This document shows, piece after piece, positions 20,611 to 28,517 of a stretch of DNA of 64,000 nucleotides. Position numbers and translations under genes: made by a program. Where the stretch lies: assembly GCF_944323605.1 (NCBI RefSeq), contig NZ_CALUTC010000007.1:1-64000 (forward strand), written 5' to 3'. The notes beneath the pieces are model-generated. The model saw only the letters and a list, made by a program, of their open reading frames with translations, was not told the DNA's origin and did not search any database. Source of the stretch: an uncultured Campylobacter sp. Lineage in GTDB: Bacteria > Campylobacterota > Campylobacteria > Campylobacterales > Campylobacteraceae. The number at the start of each line of letters is the position of its first letter. Position 1 is the stretch's first letter.

Positions 20611-20641
20611 GTCTTAAGTATTTCACTCAAAAGGAATGTTT

Positions 20642-21463
20642 ATGAGAAAAATTTTATTTACAGCCTCTATTTGTCTATCTTTAAATTTGGCAAATGCAGC
20701 TGTTTTAGCTACTGTCAATGGAAAAGATATCACAGATACGGAGCTTAACAAAAGATTGGAGCAGGTTTTAGCCGGTAAATCCATAAATTCTTTACCAGCC
20801 GAACAAAAAAGAATGCTTATACAGCAGTATATTGCTCAGTATCTAATCATAGAAGATGCTAAAAAAAAGGGATATGAAAAAGATAAGCTTTATTCTGAAA
20901 ACTTAGAACTTGCAAAAGAAAGCATTTTGATGGGGGTTTATCAACAAAAATTAGCAGATGATGTTAAGGTTGATAGCTCCAAAGTTAAGGCACTTTATGA
21001 GAAAAATAAAGATCAGTTCATAGAACCAGCTGCAGTTCATGCAAGACACATACTTGTTAAAAGCGACGCAGAAGCAAGAGCTATAATATCTGAGCTTGGC
21101 ACATTAAAAGGTTCTGCTTTAACTTCGAAATTTGAAGAATTAGCAAGAGCTAAATCAATAGACCCGGGCTCTGCTTCAAGAGGAGGTGATCTTGGTTGGT
21201 TTGGACAAGCTGATATGGTAAAACCTTTTAGCGATGCCGCTTTTTCTCTTAAAAATGGCACTTTTACAAAGACGCCTGTTAAAACTCAATTTGGCTATCA
21301 TGTGATATTAAAAGAAGAATCAAGAGCTAAAAAACAATTGACATTAAGCGATGCCAATGTTAAGAGATTTATAGAAAATCAATTAAAAGCACAAGAAGTT
21401 AATATTCTTATGAATGAAAAGGCTAAAGAGCTTTTTCAAGGTGCTAAGGTAGAGATAAAATAA
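20642..21463 (+). CDS. peb4: Periplasmic peptidyl-prolyl isomerase / chaperone PEB4
   Basis: The 273-residue SurA-like chaperone helps outer-membrane proteins fold; in C. jejuni it is the antigen PEB4 (Cbf2). It has a signal peptide (MRKILFTASICLSLNLANA), an N-terminal helical SurA domain (about 20-125) and a parvulin PPIC domain (about 130-235, HARHILVKSDAEA ... GDLGWFGQADMVKPFSDAAF ... TQFGYHVI). AAGGA touches the ATG at 20636 but lies 6 bases before the ATG at 20642, so I start at 20642. The stop overlaps the fba start (TAATG). Confidence 0.95.
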   Translation: MRKILFTASICLSLNLANAAVLATVNGKDITDTELNKRLEQVLAGKSINSLPAEQKRMLIQQYIAQYLIIEDAKKKGYEKDKLYSENLELAKESILMGVYQQKLADDVKVDSSKVKALYEKNKDQFIEPAAVHARHILVKSDAEARAIISELGTLKGSALTSKFEELARAKSIDPGSASRGGDLGWFGQADMVKPFSDAAFSLKNGTFTKTPVKTQFGYHVILKEESRAKKQLTLSDANVKRFIENQLKAQEVNILMNEKAKELFQGAKVEIK

Positions 21464-22527
21464 TGGGTGTTTTAGATATAGTAAATGCCGGCGTTGTAAG
21501 TGGCGAAAAATTAAATCAAGTTTATGAGTATGCAAAATCAAACAATTTTGCTATACCTGCTGTAAATGTAGTTGGCACAAATTCTATAAATGCTGTTTTA
21601 GAAGCAGCTAAAAAAGTAAATTCCCCCGTTATCATCCAGTTTTCAAACGGTGGGGCTAAATTTGTGGCTGGAAAAAATTGTCAAAATGGCGATATTTTAG
21701 GTGCTATCAGTGGTGCAAAGCACGTTCATTTACTTGCTAAAGCTTATGGTGTGCCTGTTATTTTGCATACAGACCATGCTGCAAGAAAGTTGTTGCCTTG
21801 GATAGATGGTTTAATAAAAGCAAATGCAGAATTTAAAGAAAAAGAAGGACAAGCTTTGTTCTCATCTCATATGCTTGATTTAAGCGAAGAGAGTTTAGAG
21901 GAAAATTTAAGCACTTGCGAAGCTTATCTTGAGCGTTTAGATAAGCTTGGAATTTGTCTTGAAATAGAGCTTGGTTGCACAGGCGGAGAAGAAGATGGCG
22001 TTGATAATACAGGTATTGACAATGCTAAGCTTTATACTCAACCAGAAGATGTAGCTCTTGCTTATGAAAGACTAGGTAAAATAAGCGATAGATTTTCTAT
22101 AGCAGCTTCTTTTGGTAATGTGCATGGTGTTTATAAGCCCGGAAATGTAAGCTTACAGCCTAGTATATTAAAAAACTCCCAAGCCTATGTAAAGGATAAA
22201 TTTAATCTAAATTACGATAAGCCTATAAATTTTGTCTTTCACGGTGGTTCTGGTTCAGAGCTTAGCGATATAAAAGAAGCTATTTCTTATGGTGTAATAA
22301 AAATGAATATAGACACAGATACTCAATGGGCATTTTGGGATGGAGTGCGTGAGTATGAAAAGCAAAATAGGGATTACCTACAAGGACAAATTGGAAATCC
22401 ACAGGGTGATGATAAGCCAAATAAAAAATATTACGATCCAAGAGTGTGGTTAAGAGCTGGTGAAGAAAGTATGATAAAAAGACTTCAAAGGGCTTTTGAG
22501 GATTTAAATTGTATAGGTAGAAATTAG
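21463..22527 (+). CDS. fba: Class II fructose-bisphosphate aldolase
   Basis: The 354-residue Zn-dependent aldolase interconverts fructose-1,6-bisphosphate with DHAP and GAP. Since Campylobacter generally lacks phosphofructokinase, its main role is gluconeogenic (family knowledge). Metal and substrate motifs are present: LHTDHAARK (Zn histidine), EIELGCTGGEEDGVD, FGNVHGVYKPGNV, HGGSGS and NMDTD-like MNIDTDTQW. It is translationally coupled to peb4. Confidence 0.97.
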   Translation: MGVLDIVNAGVVSGEKLNQVYEYAKSNNFAIPAVNVVGTNSINAVLEAAKKVNSPVIIQFSNGGAKFVAGKNCQNGDILGAISGAKHVHLLAKAYGVPVILHTDHAARKLLPWIDGLIKANAEFKEKEGQALFSSHMLDLSEESLEENLSTCEAYLERLDKLGICLEIELGCTGGEEDGVDNTGIDNAKLYTQPEDVALAYERLGKISDRFSIAASFGNVHGVYKPGNVSLQPSILKNSQAYVKDKFNLNYDKPINFVFHGGSGSELSDIKEAISYGVIKMNIDTDTQWAFWDGVREYEKQNRDYLQGQIGNPQGDDKPNKKYYDPRVWLRAGEESMIKRLQRAFEDLNCIGRN

Positions 22528-22536
22528 GGATTTTTA

Positions 22537-23853
22537 ATGGATAGAGAAAATTTAGAGGTTGTATTACCAGACATAAAGCAAAGAAGTGGTTTTTTAGTAT
22601 ATGTAAAGATTATATTTTTGCCATTTGTGTTTTGTTTTATAGCTATTTGTGCTTATTTAGACTACATAGACTTAAATATAGGTATAATAGAACTAAGTCT
22701 AATTATTTGCATATTTGTAATAGTGCTATTTTTTGCAAGATATAGCTCTGAATACACCTCTAGTATTTTCGAACAACAAAAAGATGAATTTAAACAAGCA
22801 CTTAAAAAATATATTATGAAAAATTTTTTAAGTATAGGCAAAGAAACCAAAAGTAACGCTTCTTTTGATGATTTTGCCAACTCTTATATAAGAGGTATAA
22901 AAAATGAGCATTTCTCCTCAATGGCTAGTAATGTATTTGCTCTTTTAGGAATTTTAGGAACTTTTATAAGCATAGCTTTTTATATACCAAATTTTACAAA
23001 TCTTAATATGAATTCATTAGAAGCAGATATATCAAAGCTATCTATAGGTCTTGCTTCATCTTTTTATATCTGTATTTATGGGATTTTTTTATCTTTATGG
23101 TGGATGTTTTTTGAAAAATTTGGAAATTTAAAAATTCAACTCATTTTAGATAGGCAAAAAAATGCTACTAGGGCTTTCTTTTGGTCAAAAGAGGAGCTTA
23201 GACAAAGATATTTGGAAAAATCTTTACAGCACTTCGATAAGATAGGTATAGTTTTTGAGCAAGTTAGCAATGAAGACTTTTTCAAAGAGCTTGATCATAG
23301 CATAGAACGTAAATTTGGTCTTTTTCAGGATATGCTTAATGTTGAAGAAAAAGCCATAAGACTAAGCAGTGAAAATATAAAGCAAAGTATGACTGAGCTA
23401 AATAGAGCACACAGAAATCAAAGAGACTTAAGCAAAATTTATCTTGAAATGACTAATAGCATAAGCATTTTAAATCAAAATTTCAAAGATATAAGCTCAA
23501 AGATGAGTGAGCAGTATAATAAATTATTAGATGTTAGCAATGAAAGAATATCTCATCTTGATAAAACATTGATATTGTTAGACGAAAAAATAGATTCTTT
23601 GAAAAGAAATTTTGAGCTTTATGAAACTTCCTTGCTTGAAAGTCAAGATAGAGTGTTTAAAGGCTTTAAAGACGCTATGTTTCAAGGTATGAAAGACTTC
23701 AAAGAAGTTTATGAAGAGGAAAAAACTATAGATGATAAAATAGAAATGATGTCTCAACTAAAACAAGATATGACAGAAATTGATAATGAAGCAAGTGAAG
23801 TTATAGCAAAGCTTGTGCAAGAAGATAAAGTCGCAAAGAAAAATGAAATCTAA
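22537..23853 (+). CDS. MotA/TolQ/ExbB-like membrane protein with long coiled-coil tail
   Basis: The 438-residue protein has four predicted membrane helices (about 20-40, 49-67, 130-150 and 168-193). The last two match the proton-channel domain: FALLGILGTFISIAF (compare LLGLLGTVxGMI) and LSIGLASSFYICIYGIFLS. Residues 200-438 form a long, Glu/Lys-rich, mostly coiled-coil cytoplasmic tail. The next gene, overlapping by 11 bases, encodes a one-helix OmpA-domain protein, so the two resemble the A and B subunits of a MotAB/ExbBD/ZorAB-type complex. Position corresponds, as I recall, to C. jejuni Cj0598. Function is unknown. It sits 9 bases after fba and may be co-transcribed. Confidence 0.75.
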   Translation: MDRENLEVVLPDIKQRSGFLVYVKIIFLPFVFCFIAICAYLDYIDLNIGIIELSLIICIFVIVLFFARYSSEYTSSIFEQQKDEFKQALKKYIMKNFLSIGKETKSNASFDDFANSYIRGIKNEHFSSMASNVFALLGILGTFISIAFYIPNFTNLNMNSLEADISKLSIGLASSFYICIYGIFLSLWWMFFEKFGNLKIQLILDRQKNATRAFFWSKEELRQRYLEKSLQHFDKIGIVFEQVSNEDFFKELDHSIERKFGLFQDMLNVEEKAIRLSSENIKQSMTELNRAHRNQRDLSKIYLEMTNSISILNQNFKDISSKMSEQYNKLLDVSNERISHLDKTLILLDEKIDSLKRNFELYETSLLESQDRVFKGFKDAMFQGMKDFKEVYEEEKTIDDKIEMMSQLKQDMTEIDNEASEVIAKLVQEDKVAKKNEI

Positions 23854-24703
23854 CAATAATCTATTCTTATTTTTTCCAATGCTTATAGTAGCGTTATTTA
23901 TGCTGCTTTTATTTCTTCTTTCTGTATTATTTTTAAAAAATATATTTACACGAGAAGAGATAAAAAAAGAAGAATATGACTTAGTGTCTCAAAAAGAAAA
24001 ATTTGATGAGTATATAGAAAATTTTAAACAAAGAGAAAAAGCCATATTTGATTTAGCTAGAGGTATGGAGAGTGGAAATCTTAGCATAAACACAAATTCA
24101 AGGGACAAAGATTTACTTTTGCTTCTTTCGCAGCTTGAAAGACAGGAGGCTGAATTAAATTCATTGAAAAATGATTTTAATAAGGCAAAGCAAAAAATTT
24201 TGGATTTAAATTTTTTACAAGGTGATACTATACTAGAATTACAGGCAAGATTGGATGCTAATATAAGTCTAGATTCTCAAAGTGGGGCTATGACTATAAG
24301 GTCTGATTATTTGTTTAATGATAATTCCTACACTCTTAAAAGCGAAGCGAAACCAAAATTACATAGAATTTTATCCGAGTATTTTAATGCGATATTAGAA
24401 GATGATTATTTAAAGGGCATTATACAAAACATAATCATAGAAGTGCATTCTTCTTCAGATGATTCATCTTTTATGTATAAGTTGGATTTAACACATAAAA
24501 GAGCTTATGAGTTAGCATCTTTCATACAATCTTTTTACAAAAATAATTCTTTTAAAAAGCTTTTACTAATTAGTGGAAAATCATTTTCACAGCCAATCTA
24601 CACAAATGGCGTTGAAGATGAGGTAGCTAGCAATAGAATAAAGATTTATTTTACAGTATCAAATGAAGCGATTATAGAAAAATTTGAAGAATTTTTTCAT
24701 TAG
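23843..24703 (+). CDS. MotB-like OmpA-domain membrane protein
   Basis: The 286-residue protein has one membrane helix (about 8-32, LFLFFPMLIVALFMLLLFLL), a coiled coil (40-145) and a C-terminal peptidoglycan-binding OmpA-like domain (about 160-286) with LDLTHKRAYELASFI and SNRIKIYF. The arrangement is that of MotB/ZorB, but the helix contains no Asp or Glu, so the usual proton-accepting aspartate is missing. An upstream in-frame TTG (23813) exists; the ATG at 23843 overlapping the previous stop (ATGAAATCTAA) is preferred. It is likely the partner of the MotA/ExbB-like protein. Confidence 0.75.
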   Translation: MKSNNNLFLFFPMLIVALFMLLLFLLSVLFLKNIFTREEIKKEEYDLVSQKEKFDEYIENFKQREKAIFDLARGMESGNLSINTNSRDKDLLLLLSQLERQEAELNSLKNDFNKAKQKILDLNFLQGDTILELQARLDANISLDSQSGAMTIRSDYLFNDNSYTLKSEAKPKLHRILSEYFNAILEDDYLKGIIQNIIIEVHSSSDDSSFMYKLDLTHKRAYELASFIQSFYKNNSFKKLLLISGKSFSQPIYTNGVEDEVASNRIKIYFTVSNEAIIEKFEEFFH

Positions 24704-25550
24704 TAAGATAGACAAAATAAAAATTGGCAATTTTTCTTTTTATGTAAAAAGAGATGATTTATTAGGCGTAATAAATGGCAATAAAGCTAGAAAATTGGCA
24801 TTTTTTATGGATAATGAATACCAAAAAGGACAAAAATTAATATCTTACGGTTCATCCCAAAGTAATGCATTAGCTGCTTTAAGCATATTTTGCAAACAAA
24901 GATCCTTAAAATTTATCTTTGTTTGTGAAAAAATTTCTTCTTTTTTAAAGCAAAATCCACAGGCAAATTACGCTTTAGCACTTGAAAATGAAGCTTTAAT
25001 ATTTGAAAATTTAGAATTTAAGCACAGAAGAGATAAGGCTTTAAATTTTTTAGAAGAAGGAGATATATTTATAGAAGAGGGGATTGCTGTTAAGGAGGCT
25101 GAATATGGGCTTAAGATTTTAGCCAAGGAGATACAAACTCAAAGCAAAGAATTAGGAATTGAATTTGATATTTTTTTGCCTTCTGGAACTGGCACATCTG
25201 CTGCTTTTCTAGCTAAAAATTCTGATTTTAATGTCTATACTTGTGCTTGTGTCGCAGATGAAGCTTATTTAAAACTTCAAATTTCAGCACTTACTAAATT
25301 TCCAAAAAATTTGCATATATTGAGTGCTAGTAAAAAATTTCATTTTGCAAAACCTTATAAAGAGCTTTTTCATATCTATAATGAATCTTTAAAAAGCGGC
25401 ATTGAATTTGATTTACTTTATGACTGTGTGGGACTTTTAACTGTGCTTGAAAATAAAAATATATTTAAAAAACCACTTTTATATATACATCAAGGAGGTT
25501 TGCTAGGAAATTCTAGTATGTTAAAAAGATATATAAGAAAGGGTTTTTAG
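24684..25550 (+). CDS. PLP-dependent enzyme of the ACC deaminase/D-cysteine desulfhydrase family
   Basis: The 288-residue fold-type II PLP enzyme has KRDDLLGVINGNKARKL near residue 22, where Lys of GNKARKL is the expected cofactor lysine. YGSSQSNALAALS matches the substrate-binding SNH/SNA block, and LPSGTGTSAAF the phosphate-binding glycine loop. It is shorter than typical members (about 325-340). The start is TTG at 24684, inside the previous gene, with no strong Shine-Dalgarno, so coupled translation is likely. Substrate is unknown (D-cysteine or ACC are only family precedents). Confidence 0.82.
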   Translation: MKNFFISKIDKIKIGNFSFYVKRDDLLGVINGNKARKLAFFMDNEYQKGQKLISYGSSQSNALAALSIFCKQRSLKFIFVCEKISSFLKQNPQANYALALENEALIFENLEFKHRRDKALNFLEEGDIFIEEGIAVKEAEYGLKILAKEIQTQSKELGIEFDIFLPSGTGTSAAFLAKNSDFNVYTCACVADEAYLKLQISALTKFPKNLHILSASKKFHFAKPYKELFHIYNESLKSGIEFDLLYDCVGLLTVLENKNIFKKPLLYIHQGGLLGNSSMLKRYIRKGF

Positions 25551-27671: not shown

Positions 27672-28517
27672 ATGAATTCTAAGAAAATTATGGCAATTTT
27701 GCTGGTTTTGCTAGTAGTTTTAGTGTGCTTATTTTATTATATGTTCGCAAATAGAAATATAAAAGCTATAGATTTTAATGAAGAAAATCTCACAGAAGTA
27801 AAAACAGAAGTAAAACAAGATAAAAAACCAGAAATTAAGGTTGTAAAAAGCACTACAAATAAAGCCAAAAAAGAAGAAAAAATAAATTCCAAAGAAGCAG
27901 TTAAAGAAACTAAAAAAACTAATAATCCTACAAATGAATTGTATGATGAATACAAAAAGCTCTTAGCTCAATCAAAAAGAGATAGAAGTTTAGGTGAGCC
28001 AAGATACAATTTTTATGTCTTAAATTCTCAAAAGCTAAATGCGGCACAAAAAAGATTGATAAATGATATAAGAACGACTCTTTCTCTAAGAGGCGGTTAT
28101 CTTAAATATGAAATTTTTGTTGAAAAAATTTCTGATGAAAATATGAAACTTTATATTTTTAATACCTCTTTATTTGATAATACTTCTTGGGAAAAATTAG
28201 ATGCAAACGCACTTCCTAATATGCTTTTTAAATTCAATCAAGATACTGTTTTAAGTATAAAAAATAGCTTTTATATGAGAGATTTAAAGCTATCTATAGG
28301 TAAAAATGCAAAAATCAAAGCTATGCACATAAGCGGACACACTGATGAAAACGGTTCAAAAGCTTATAATTATGCTTTAGGCTTGAAAAGAAGTGCAGCT
28401 GTTGCAAGCGAATTTCTAAGGCAGGTTGGTAAGATTACGTTAGATTCTTACGGAAAAGACGCTCCATTTGGCGTAAAATCCTACGAAAATCGTTGTGCTG
28501 CTATAGTCTTTATGTAA
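27672..28517 (+). CDS. Membrane-anchored periplasmic protein with degenerate OmpA-like C-terminus
   Basis: The 281-residue protein has one N-terminal membrane helix (about 6-26), a Lys/Glu/Thr-rich linker (40-95) and a structured C-terminal half. Its end, AMHISGHTDENGSKAYNYAL, followed by LKRSAAVASEFL and NRCAAIVFM, matches the OmpA/MotB peptidoglycan-binding pattern (GHTD, LS..RA..V..yL, NRRVEI), with Cys-Ala in place of Arg-Val near the end. Resembles in position C. jejuni Cj0776c. Function is unknown; peptidoglycan tethering is inferred. It is followed by valS after 17 bases. Confidence 0.75.
   Translation: MNSKKIMAILLVLLVVLVCLFYYMFANRNIKAIDFNEENLTEVKTEVKQDKKPEIKVVKSTTNKAKKEEKINSKEAVKETKKTNNPTNELYDEYKKLLAQSKRDRSLGEPRYNFYVLNSQKLNAAQKRLINDIRTTLSLRGGYLKYEIFVEKISDENMKLYIFNTSLFDNTSWEKLDANALPNMLFKFNQDTVLSIKNSFYMRDLKLSIGKNAKIKAMHISGHTDENGSKAYNYALGLKRSAAVASEFLRQVGKITLDSYGKDAPFGVKSYENRCAAIVFM

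Follow-up and report, generated by a model that had tools for sequence, protein, structure and literature searches.

The complex ZorA5B2 of the Zorya defence systems has been solved (PDB: 8QYD, 8VVI, 8VVN; PMC11890865), and both the aspartate of ZorB and the residues of its peptidoglycan site are required in Zorya; mutation of certain ZorB residues stopped peptidoglycan binding (PMC11890865). The aspartate of the membrane helix is essential in ZorB and in MotB (PMC9389320, PMC11890865). A survey of MotAB describes a further group of non-flagellar MotA relatives, the “generic ion transporters” (GIT), whose function is unassigned and whose B subunits are described as lacking an OmpA-type domain (PMC12505986); a search of its text for Campylobacter or for lost aspartates gave no result.

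Here we analyse a gene pair in a contig of an uncultured Campylobacter sp. (NZ_CALUTC010000007.1, positions 1–64,000, hereafter the window). The pair, which we call ZA and ZB, resembles ZorAB and is found in most Campylobacteraceae, and the window copy of ZB has no aspartate in its membrane helix.

The gene pair, its neighbourhood and its family

Two overlapping reading frames, as reported in the first-pass annotation of the window, encode ZA (22537–23853, + strand, 438 aa) and ZB (23843–24703, + strand, 286 aa from the ATG at 23843), with an overlap of 11 nt. ZA is a member of the MotA/TolQ/ExbB family with four transmembrane helices, located by hydropathy at about residues 19–48, 48–66, 133–151 and 168–186, followed by a helical cytoplasmic stalk and tail of about 240 residues. 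Helical periodicity after residue 195 is strong (3.56–3.6 residues), with a power for the window ZA alone of 14.7, above the 95% limit of shuffled sequences (6.7), so that hydropathy and periodicity agree on the four-helix protein with a coiled-coil tail proposed earlier. Its TM3–TM4 segment (residues 126–195; 22912–23121, +) carries the neighbours of the ion site and is followed by the cytoplasmic stalk (residues 196–300; 23122–23436, +). ZB consists of a single membrane helix (23858–23941, +), a coiled coil and an OmpA-like domain (24263–24697, +). Its match to OmpA by sequence is below the cut-off (E 1.3e-3), and AlphaFold predicts the C-terminal OmpA domain fairly confidently (mean pLDDT about 80); a Foldseek search with this model ranks ZorB structures first, ahead of MotB, Pal-type and other OmpA domains, which bears out the description of ZB as a single-helix OmpA-domain partner. 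The single-chain AlphaFold model of ZA, made from five sequences, reached a pLDDT of 40 and was discarded.

The genes peb4 and fba (20636–22527, +) end 10 nt upstream of ZA, peb4 being the gene of an outer-membrane-protein chaperone, and a PLP-dependent enzyme gene (24684–25550, +), which we named by eye from its sequence as ACC-deaminase/cysteine-desulfhydrase-like, lies downstream. No regulatory RNA or promoter signal above chance was found. By the gene order of C. jejuni we take ZA to be of the Cj0598 type and ZB of the Cj0599 type. The pair occurs in C. jejuni, where its function is unstudied in the literature searched, which for Cj0598/Cj0599 yielded just a proteomics list and one table, with “function unknown” entered for cj0598. 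We searched 150 genomes of a larger Campylobacteraceae set, one genome per species, and found adjacent orthologous pairs in 128 of them with ZB as query, a recurrence far beyond chance. ZA and ZB are adjacent in essentially all Campylobacteraceae loci examined, C. jejuni and C. coli included. The gene order hardly varies throughout the family: nth, on the opposite strand, is followed by peb4, fba, ZA, ZB and the PLP-enzyme gene. Beyond Campylobacteraceae the pair alone is conserved and its neighbours are not, and strong ZB matches to an alignment profile occur in more families of Campylobacterales. Searches of plasmids and phages returned nothing but distant ZorB1/OmpA proteins. The pair had been called an orphan behind peb4–fba, and indeed its immediate neighbours include neither flagellar nor Ton genes nor Zorya effectors, and motAB lies elsewhere.

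The Pfam family MotA_ExbB (PF01618) matches residues 122–201 of the window ZA, i.e. TM3–TM4, at 24.1 bits (curated cut-off 22.9), and ZA orthologues reach 40.5 bits. Profiles of canonical members find ZorA (8VVI, 2.7e-9; 8QYK, 4e-7) and ZorB (8QYD, 1.2e-21) as their best matches among solved membrane proteins. The layout shared by MotAB, ExbBD and ZorAB was recognised correctly in the first-pass annotation. All matches of the pair in defence libraries are to ZorA or ZorB, with PADLOC PDLC00609 (ZorB1) scoring 195 bits on C. coli ZB, and its anatomy is the same as that of ZorAB. This would suit an anti-phage system of the Zorya type, whether complete or reduced, a reading that we hold to be very improbable. 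The NCBIfam cut-offs for ZorA and ZorB (100–700 bits) are missed by far, the pair scoring 23–79 bits (window ZA 23.2 against ZorA_2, cut-off 100; canonical ZB 78.7, cut-off 400). No zorC, zorD or zorE was found next to the pair, whose neighbours are nth, peb4, fba and the PLP-enzyme gene, and PADLOC found no defence-family match for the latter. Core synteny is fixed and inheritance vertical, and in a tree of B subunits a 100/100 branch separates the core ZB sequences from ZorB2 of the same phylum (the placement of ZorB1 in this tree is unsure because it is a single row on a long branch). Furthermore, genome G073 possesses the core pair together with a separate ZorA2-ZorB2-ZorE set, a real Zorya II system. 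On cut-offs, neighbours, clade and co-occurrence we rejected membership in Zorya. A second flagellar stator or flagellar accessory, as a MotA superfamily member in flagellated bacteria might suggest, is more improbable still: all 18 genomes tested have a separate flagellar MotB gene, the window genome included (G000:C3:93645), the pair is distant from flagellar genes, the window ZB has no match to the MotB plug domain (PF13677), and the window copy is without the aspartate. Three other MotA_ExbB members occur in the window genome, all elsewhere, namely its own motA and two more that are likely TolQ/ExbB. Profiles, missed cut-offs, the tree, the co-occurrence in G073 and the separate MotB together define a ZorAB-like yet separate system, and the pair is a core component of most Campylobacterales, vertically inherited and neither defensive nor flagellar.

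Genuine Zorya II sets (ZorA2-ZorB2-ZorE) were encountered in Campylobacterota at L111:5259–8079, L112:5303–8230, L109 and L110, with ZorE matches of 2e-86 to 6e-105; such sets coexist with the core pair in G073 and G035. A different arrangement at L114:4473–7888 consists of an 873 aa ZorA2-like protein and a ZorB2-like partner, with no adjacent ZorE at the inspected locus. Some 40 genomes of family f2, which lacks the core ZA–ZB, carry this ZorA2-like/ZorB2-like pair, possibly another orphan ZorAB-like pair. As PDLC00609 scores up to about 195 bits on the core housekeeping ZB of Campylobacterota, this model probably gives rise to false Zorya calls.

Loss of the aspartate and changes around the ion site

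The canonical ZB helix, FWIAYADLMAGLLFVFIL, is of the textbook MotB type, and its ion-binding aspartate is present in 73 of 90 related pairs. The window helix reads NLFLFFPMLIVALFML, with Met13 (codon 23879–23881) in place of the MotB/ZorB-type aspartate and no acid in the helix. Across the 17 rows without it, the position is occupied by M, L, N, T, G or A: leucine in L032 (whose ZA is 81% identical to that of the window) and L052, asparagine in L025/L026, L027/L066, L072 and L087, threonine in L054, alanine in L049, and glycine in L039 and its kin, six genomes belonging to another genus group. Further loci without the aspartate were found later (L120 and L121, G; L122, N). A relocated acid in another helix was considered and rejected, as the membrane-helix cores of ZA and ZB hold none in any of the 17 rows, and no second, intact copy bearing the aspartate was found in the window genome. 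We also rejected an assembly error, since the aspartate is absent too in L032, an independent bin, and in the one-contig genome G138, and since states without it recur inside other clades.

Since all outgroup families retain the aspartate, its loss is derived. With the trait columns excluded from the tree, the fewest changes required are four (68 rows) or five (71 rows), and four of these are separated by well-supported branches. The aspartate was thus lost at least four to five times, independently in the window lineage and in at least three other Campylobacteraceae lineages.

The loss is accompanied by changes in ZA at four ion-site positions, read as TM3 Pro, TM3 Thr, TM4 Thr and TM4 Ser; by alignment the TM3 Thr corresponds to T147 and the TM4 Ser to S184 of E. 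coli ZorA. Three of these four otherwise near-invariant residues are replaced in the window ZA: Pro by Ala135 (22939–22941, +) in TM3, and Thr by Ser174 (23056–23058, +) and Ser, the S184 equivalent, by Cys179 (23071–23073, +) in TM4, while Thr142, the T147 equivalent, is kept. The proton-channel-type helix pair noted in the first-pass annotation stands by homology, but a proton channel is not supported for the window copy, which has neither the aspartate nor three of its four partner residues, nor a replacing acid. Among rows with the aspartate the four positions read PTTS in 54/55 and PTSS in 1/55. A change in this ring is present in 16/16 non-redundant rows without the aspartate and in 1/55 rows with it; the states found are ATSC (window and L032), PTSC, PTAC, ATTS, STAS, PTSS, PTSA and SVSA, and PTTS occurs in none. 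Of the ZA columns near-invariant in rows with the aspartate, 36 in all, Thr174 and Ser179 are the two released most often in rows without it. Independent contrasts agree in direction in 4/4 cases, with a sign-test p of 0.125, significance being unreachable with four. Part of the co-change signal is a general relaxation of TM3–TM4, where the majority of the released near-invariant columns are found.

The most extreme pairs are those of L120 and L121 (genomes G065 and G040, both g4 genomes), where all four ZA residues are replaced (SVSA), the T147 equivalent included, and where ZB is almost unrecognisable and the OmpA motif is no longer discernible.

Selection, constraint and the peptidoglycan site

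In all full-length loci without the aspartate both reading frames are open. After the loss, dN/dS is 0.016–0.10 for ZA and mostly 0.07–0.13 for ZB, indicating purifying selection. Between the window and L032 it is 0.092 for ZA and 0.131 for ZB, next to 0.079 for peb4 and 0.085 for fba in the same genome pair; these are Nei-Gojobori values, rough near saturation, and dS in the window comparison is partly saturated. At unsaturated distances the ZA/ZB values are 0.016/0.072 (L027–L066, dS = 0.23–0.25) and 0.043/0.072 (L068–L070).

ZB has evolved faster after the loss, and constraint is unevenly distributed along both proteins. The ZB helix, almost frozen in pairs with the aspartate (dN 0–0.031), reaches a dN of 0.223 between the window and L032, whereas the ZA stalk (residues 196–300) is the best-kept segment of that comparison, with a dN of 0.042 and 91% identity. 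In the window clade constraint has moved from the membrane to the ZA cytoplasmic stalk. The same upper part of the tail shows the top conservation within the disarmed pairs, in keeping with the earlier suggestion that the tail may contact a cytoplasmic partner.

The peptidoglycan-site motif of the window ZB, and of ZB in its clade, is partly eroded, with EGHTDSDG changed to EVHSSSDD, YNL to YKL and SRRIEIKF to SNRIKIYF. Of the Pal/ZorB-type site, His202 and two arginines (one of them the Arg of KRA) are kept, and the losses are Thr to Ser, Asp to Ser, Asn to Lys and one Arg to Asn; the window ZB thus retains some and not others of the residues by which ZorB binds peptidoglycan. ZB is truncated or split in L122 and L073, where an apparent frameshift (L073:6106–7196, draft genome G147) divides it into reading frames of 273 and 83 aa.

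Elsewhere in the window, a gene (27672–28517, +) flanked by valS and a gene for a UvrD-type helicase encodes P0003, a second inner-membrane-anchored OmpA-domain protein of 281 aa with an intact GHTDENG motif. Strong homologues are confined to the window clade and its sister genome G144, and matches elsewhere in the genus are weak or missing. As a replacement anchor P0003 was rejected: it has no clean link to the loss, strong homologues being present in the aspartate-bearing sister genome of L030 and missing from L025/L026.

Readings of the pair and known relatives

The reading that we favour, with a probability of roughly 0.55, is that ZA and ZB form a ZorAB-derived 5:2 complex that is motor-dead in the window lineage and persists there as a static transmembrane scaffold or tether. 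Homology, synteny, the losses, the co-changes, purifying selection and the shift of constraint form its observed basis, and from them we infer that the assembly is 5:2, that no ions flow and that the complex acts as a scaffold. The ancestor would have been a ZorAB-like, ion-driven 5:2 complex. By analogy, two ZB helices probably sit inside five ZA subunits in the canonical complex, and ion flow probably turns ZA, together with its cytoplasmic rod, against a ZB held by peptidoglycan. In the window lineage and at least three others, the aspartate of ZB was lost and the surrounding ZA residues were altered alongside it; with both changed, the complex could not be driven by the known mechanism. 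Its working face would be the ZA cytoplasmic stalk just beneath the membrane, where a cytoplasmic partner would presumably dock to the envelope. Selection keeps the genes and the stalk is under the strongest constraint, which is best read as a sign that an ion-independent second role remains. The envelope-spanning complex put forward in the first-pass annotation gains support as a putative one. More tentatively, and at somewhat less than even odds, the pair may represent a natural “pseudo-motor”, whose ion site was switched off at least four times while the complex was kept as a scaffold with the ZA stalk as its surface; repeated switching off of a retained complex would mean that the essential job needs no rotation.

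The main rival is slow decay, in which loss of the aspartate left the complex without function and the present copies are a relic at several stages on the way to loss. It would account for the faster evolution of ZB and its eroded peptidoglycan site, for the highly diverged ZB of L120/L121, for the truncated or split ZB of L122 and L073, and for the absence of the pair from genomes G125 and G075. We nevertheless regard it as unlikely, albeit with an appreciable chance, because both frames are open in every full-length locus, dN/dS is well below 1 and close to that of peb4/fba (0.08–0.09, against 0.09 for ZA, window and L032), the window clade branched into several lineages after the loss with the genes retained, and the truncations sit in fragmented drafts. 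A complex still driven by ions, whether via another residue or via ZA pairing with an aspartate-bearing MotB, TolR or ExbD, is more doubtful again. The window ZA does keep Thr142 of the ion ring and the genome has other motor subunits, but the membrane-helix cores of ZA and ZB carry no acid where the aspartate is lost, the ZA ring residues are altered too, and a swap of partners is made unlikely by the constant adjacency of ZB to ZA.

To our knowledge, all characterised members of the 5:2 motor family need the membrane aspartate. Its loss from genes that selection has kept suggests a further function independent of the motor, and such losses, repeated in nature under purifying selection, set apart a role in standing there from a role in turning. 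The natural D-to-N, D-to-G and D-to-L variants allow ion-driven and ion-free versions of one machine to be compared.

Among known systems, ZorA5B2 is the best match of the pair in sequence and fold: both have a MotA-like subunit with a long C-terminal cytoplasmic helical tail and a one-helix OmpA-domain partner, encoded by adjacent genes, and the ion-site residues can be aligned (T147 and S184 of ZorA, the Asp of ZorB). Unlike Zorya, ZA and ZB stand without ZorC/D/E, form their own clade, miss the family cut-offs and lie in fixed core synteny rather than a mobile or defence setting, and the window copy differs from ZorAB in the replacement of the Asp, the TM3 Pro, the TM4 Thr and the TM4 Ser. 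Flagellar MotAB shares the architecture of a four-helix and a one-helix/OmpA subunit, and canonical ZB has a MotB helix of the YADLMAGL type; the long tail of ZA, the presence of a dedicated motAB in the same genome and the lost aspartate of the window copy set the pair apart. With TolQR/ExbBD it has in common the MotA_ExbB fold and an envelope operon context (peb4), but ZB carries an OmpA-type domain and no tolA, tonB or pal adjoins. The GIT resemble ZA as non-flagellar MotA relatives with extra C-terminal domains and differ from the pair in their B subunits, since the OmpA-type domain of ZB has no counterpart there.
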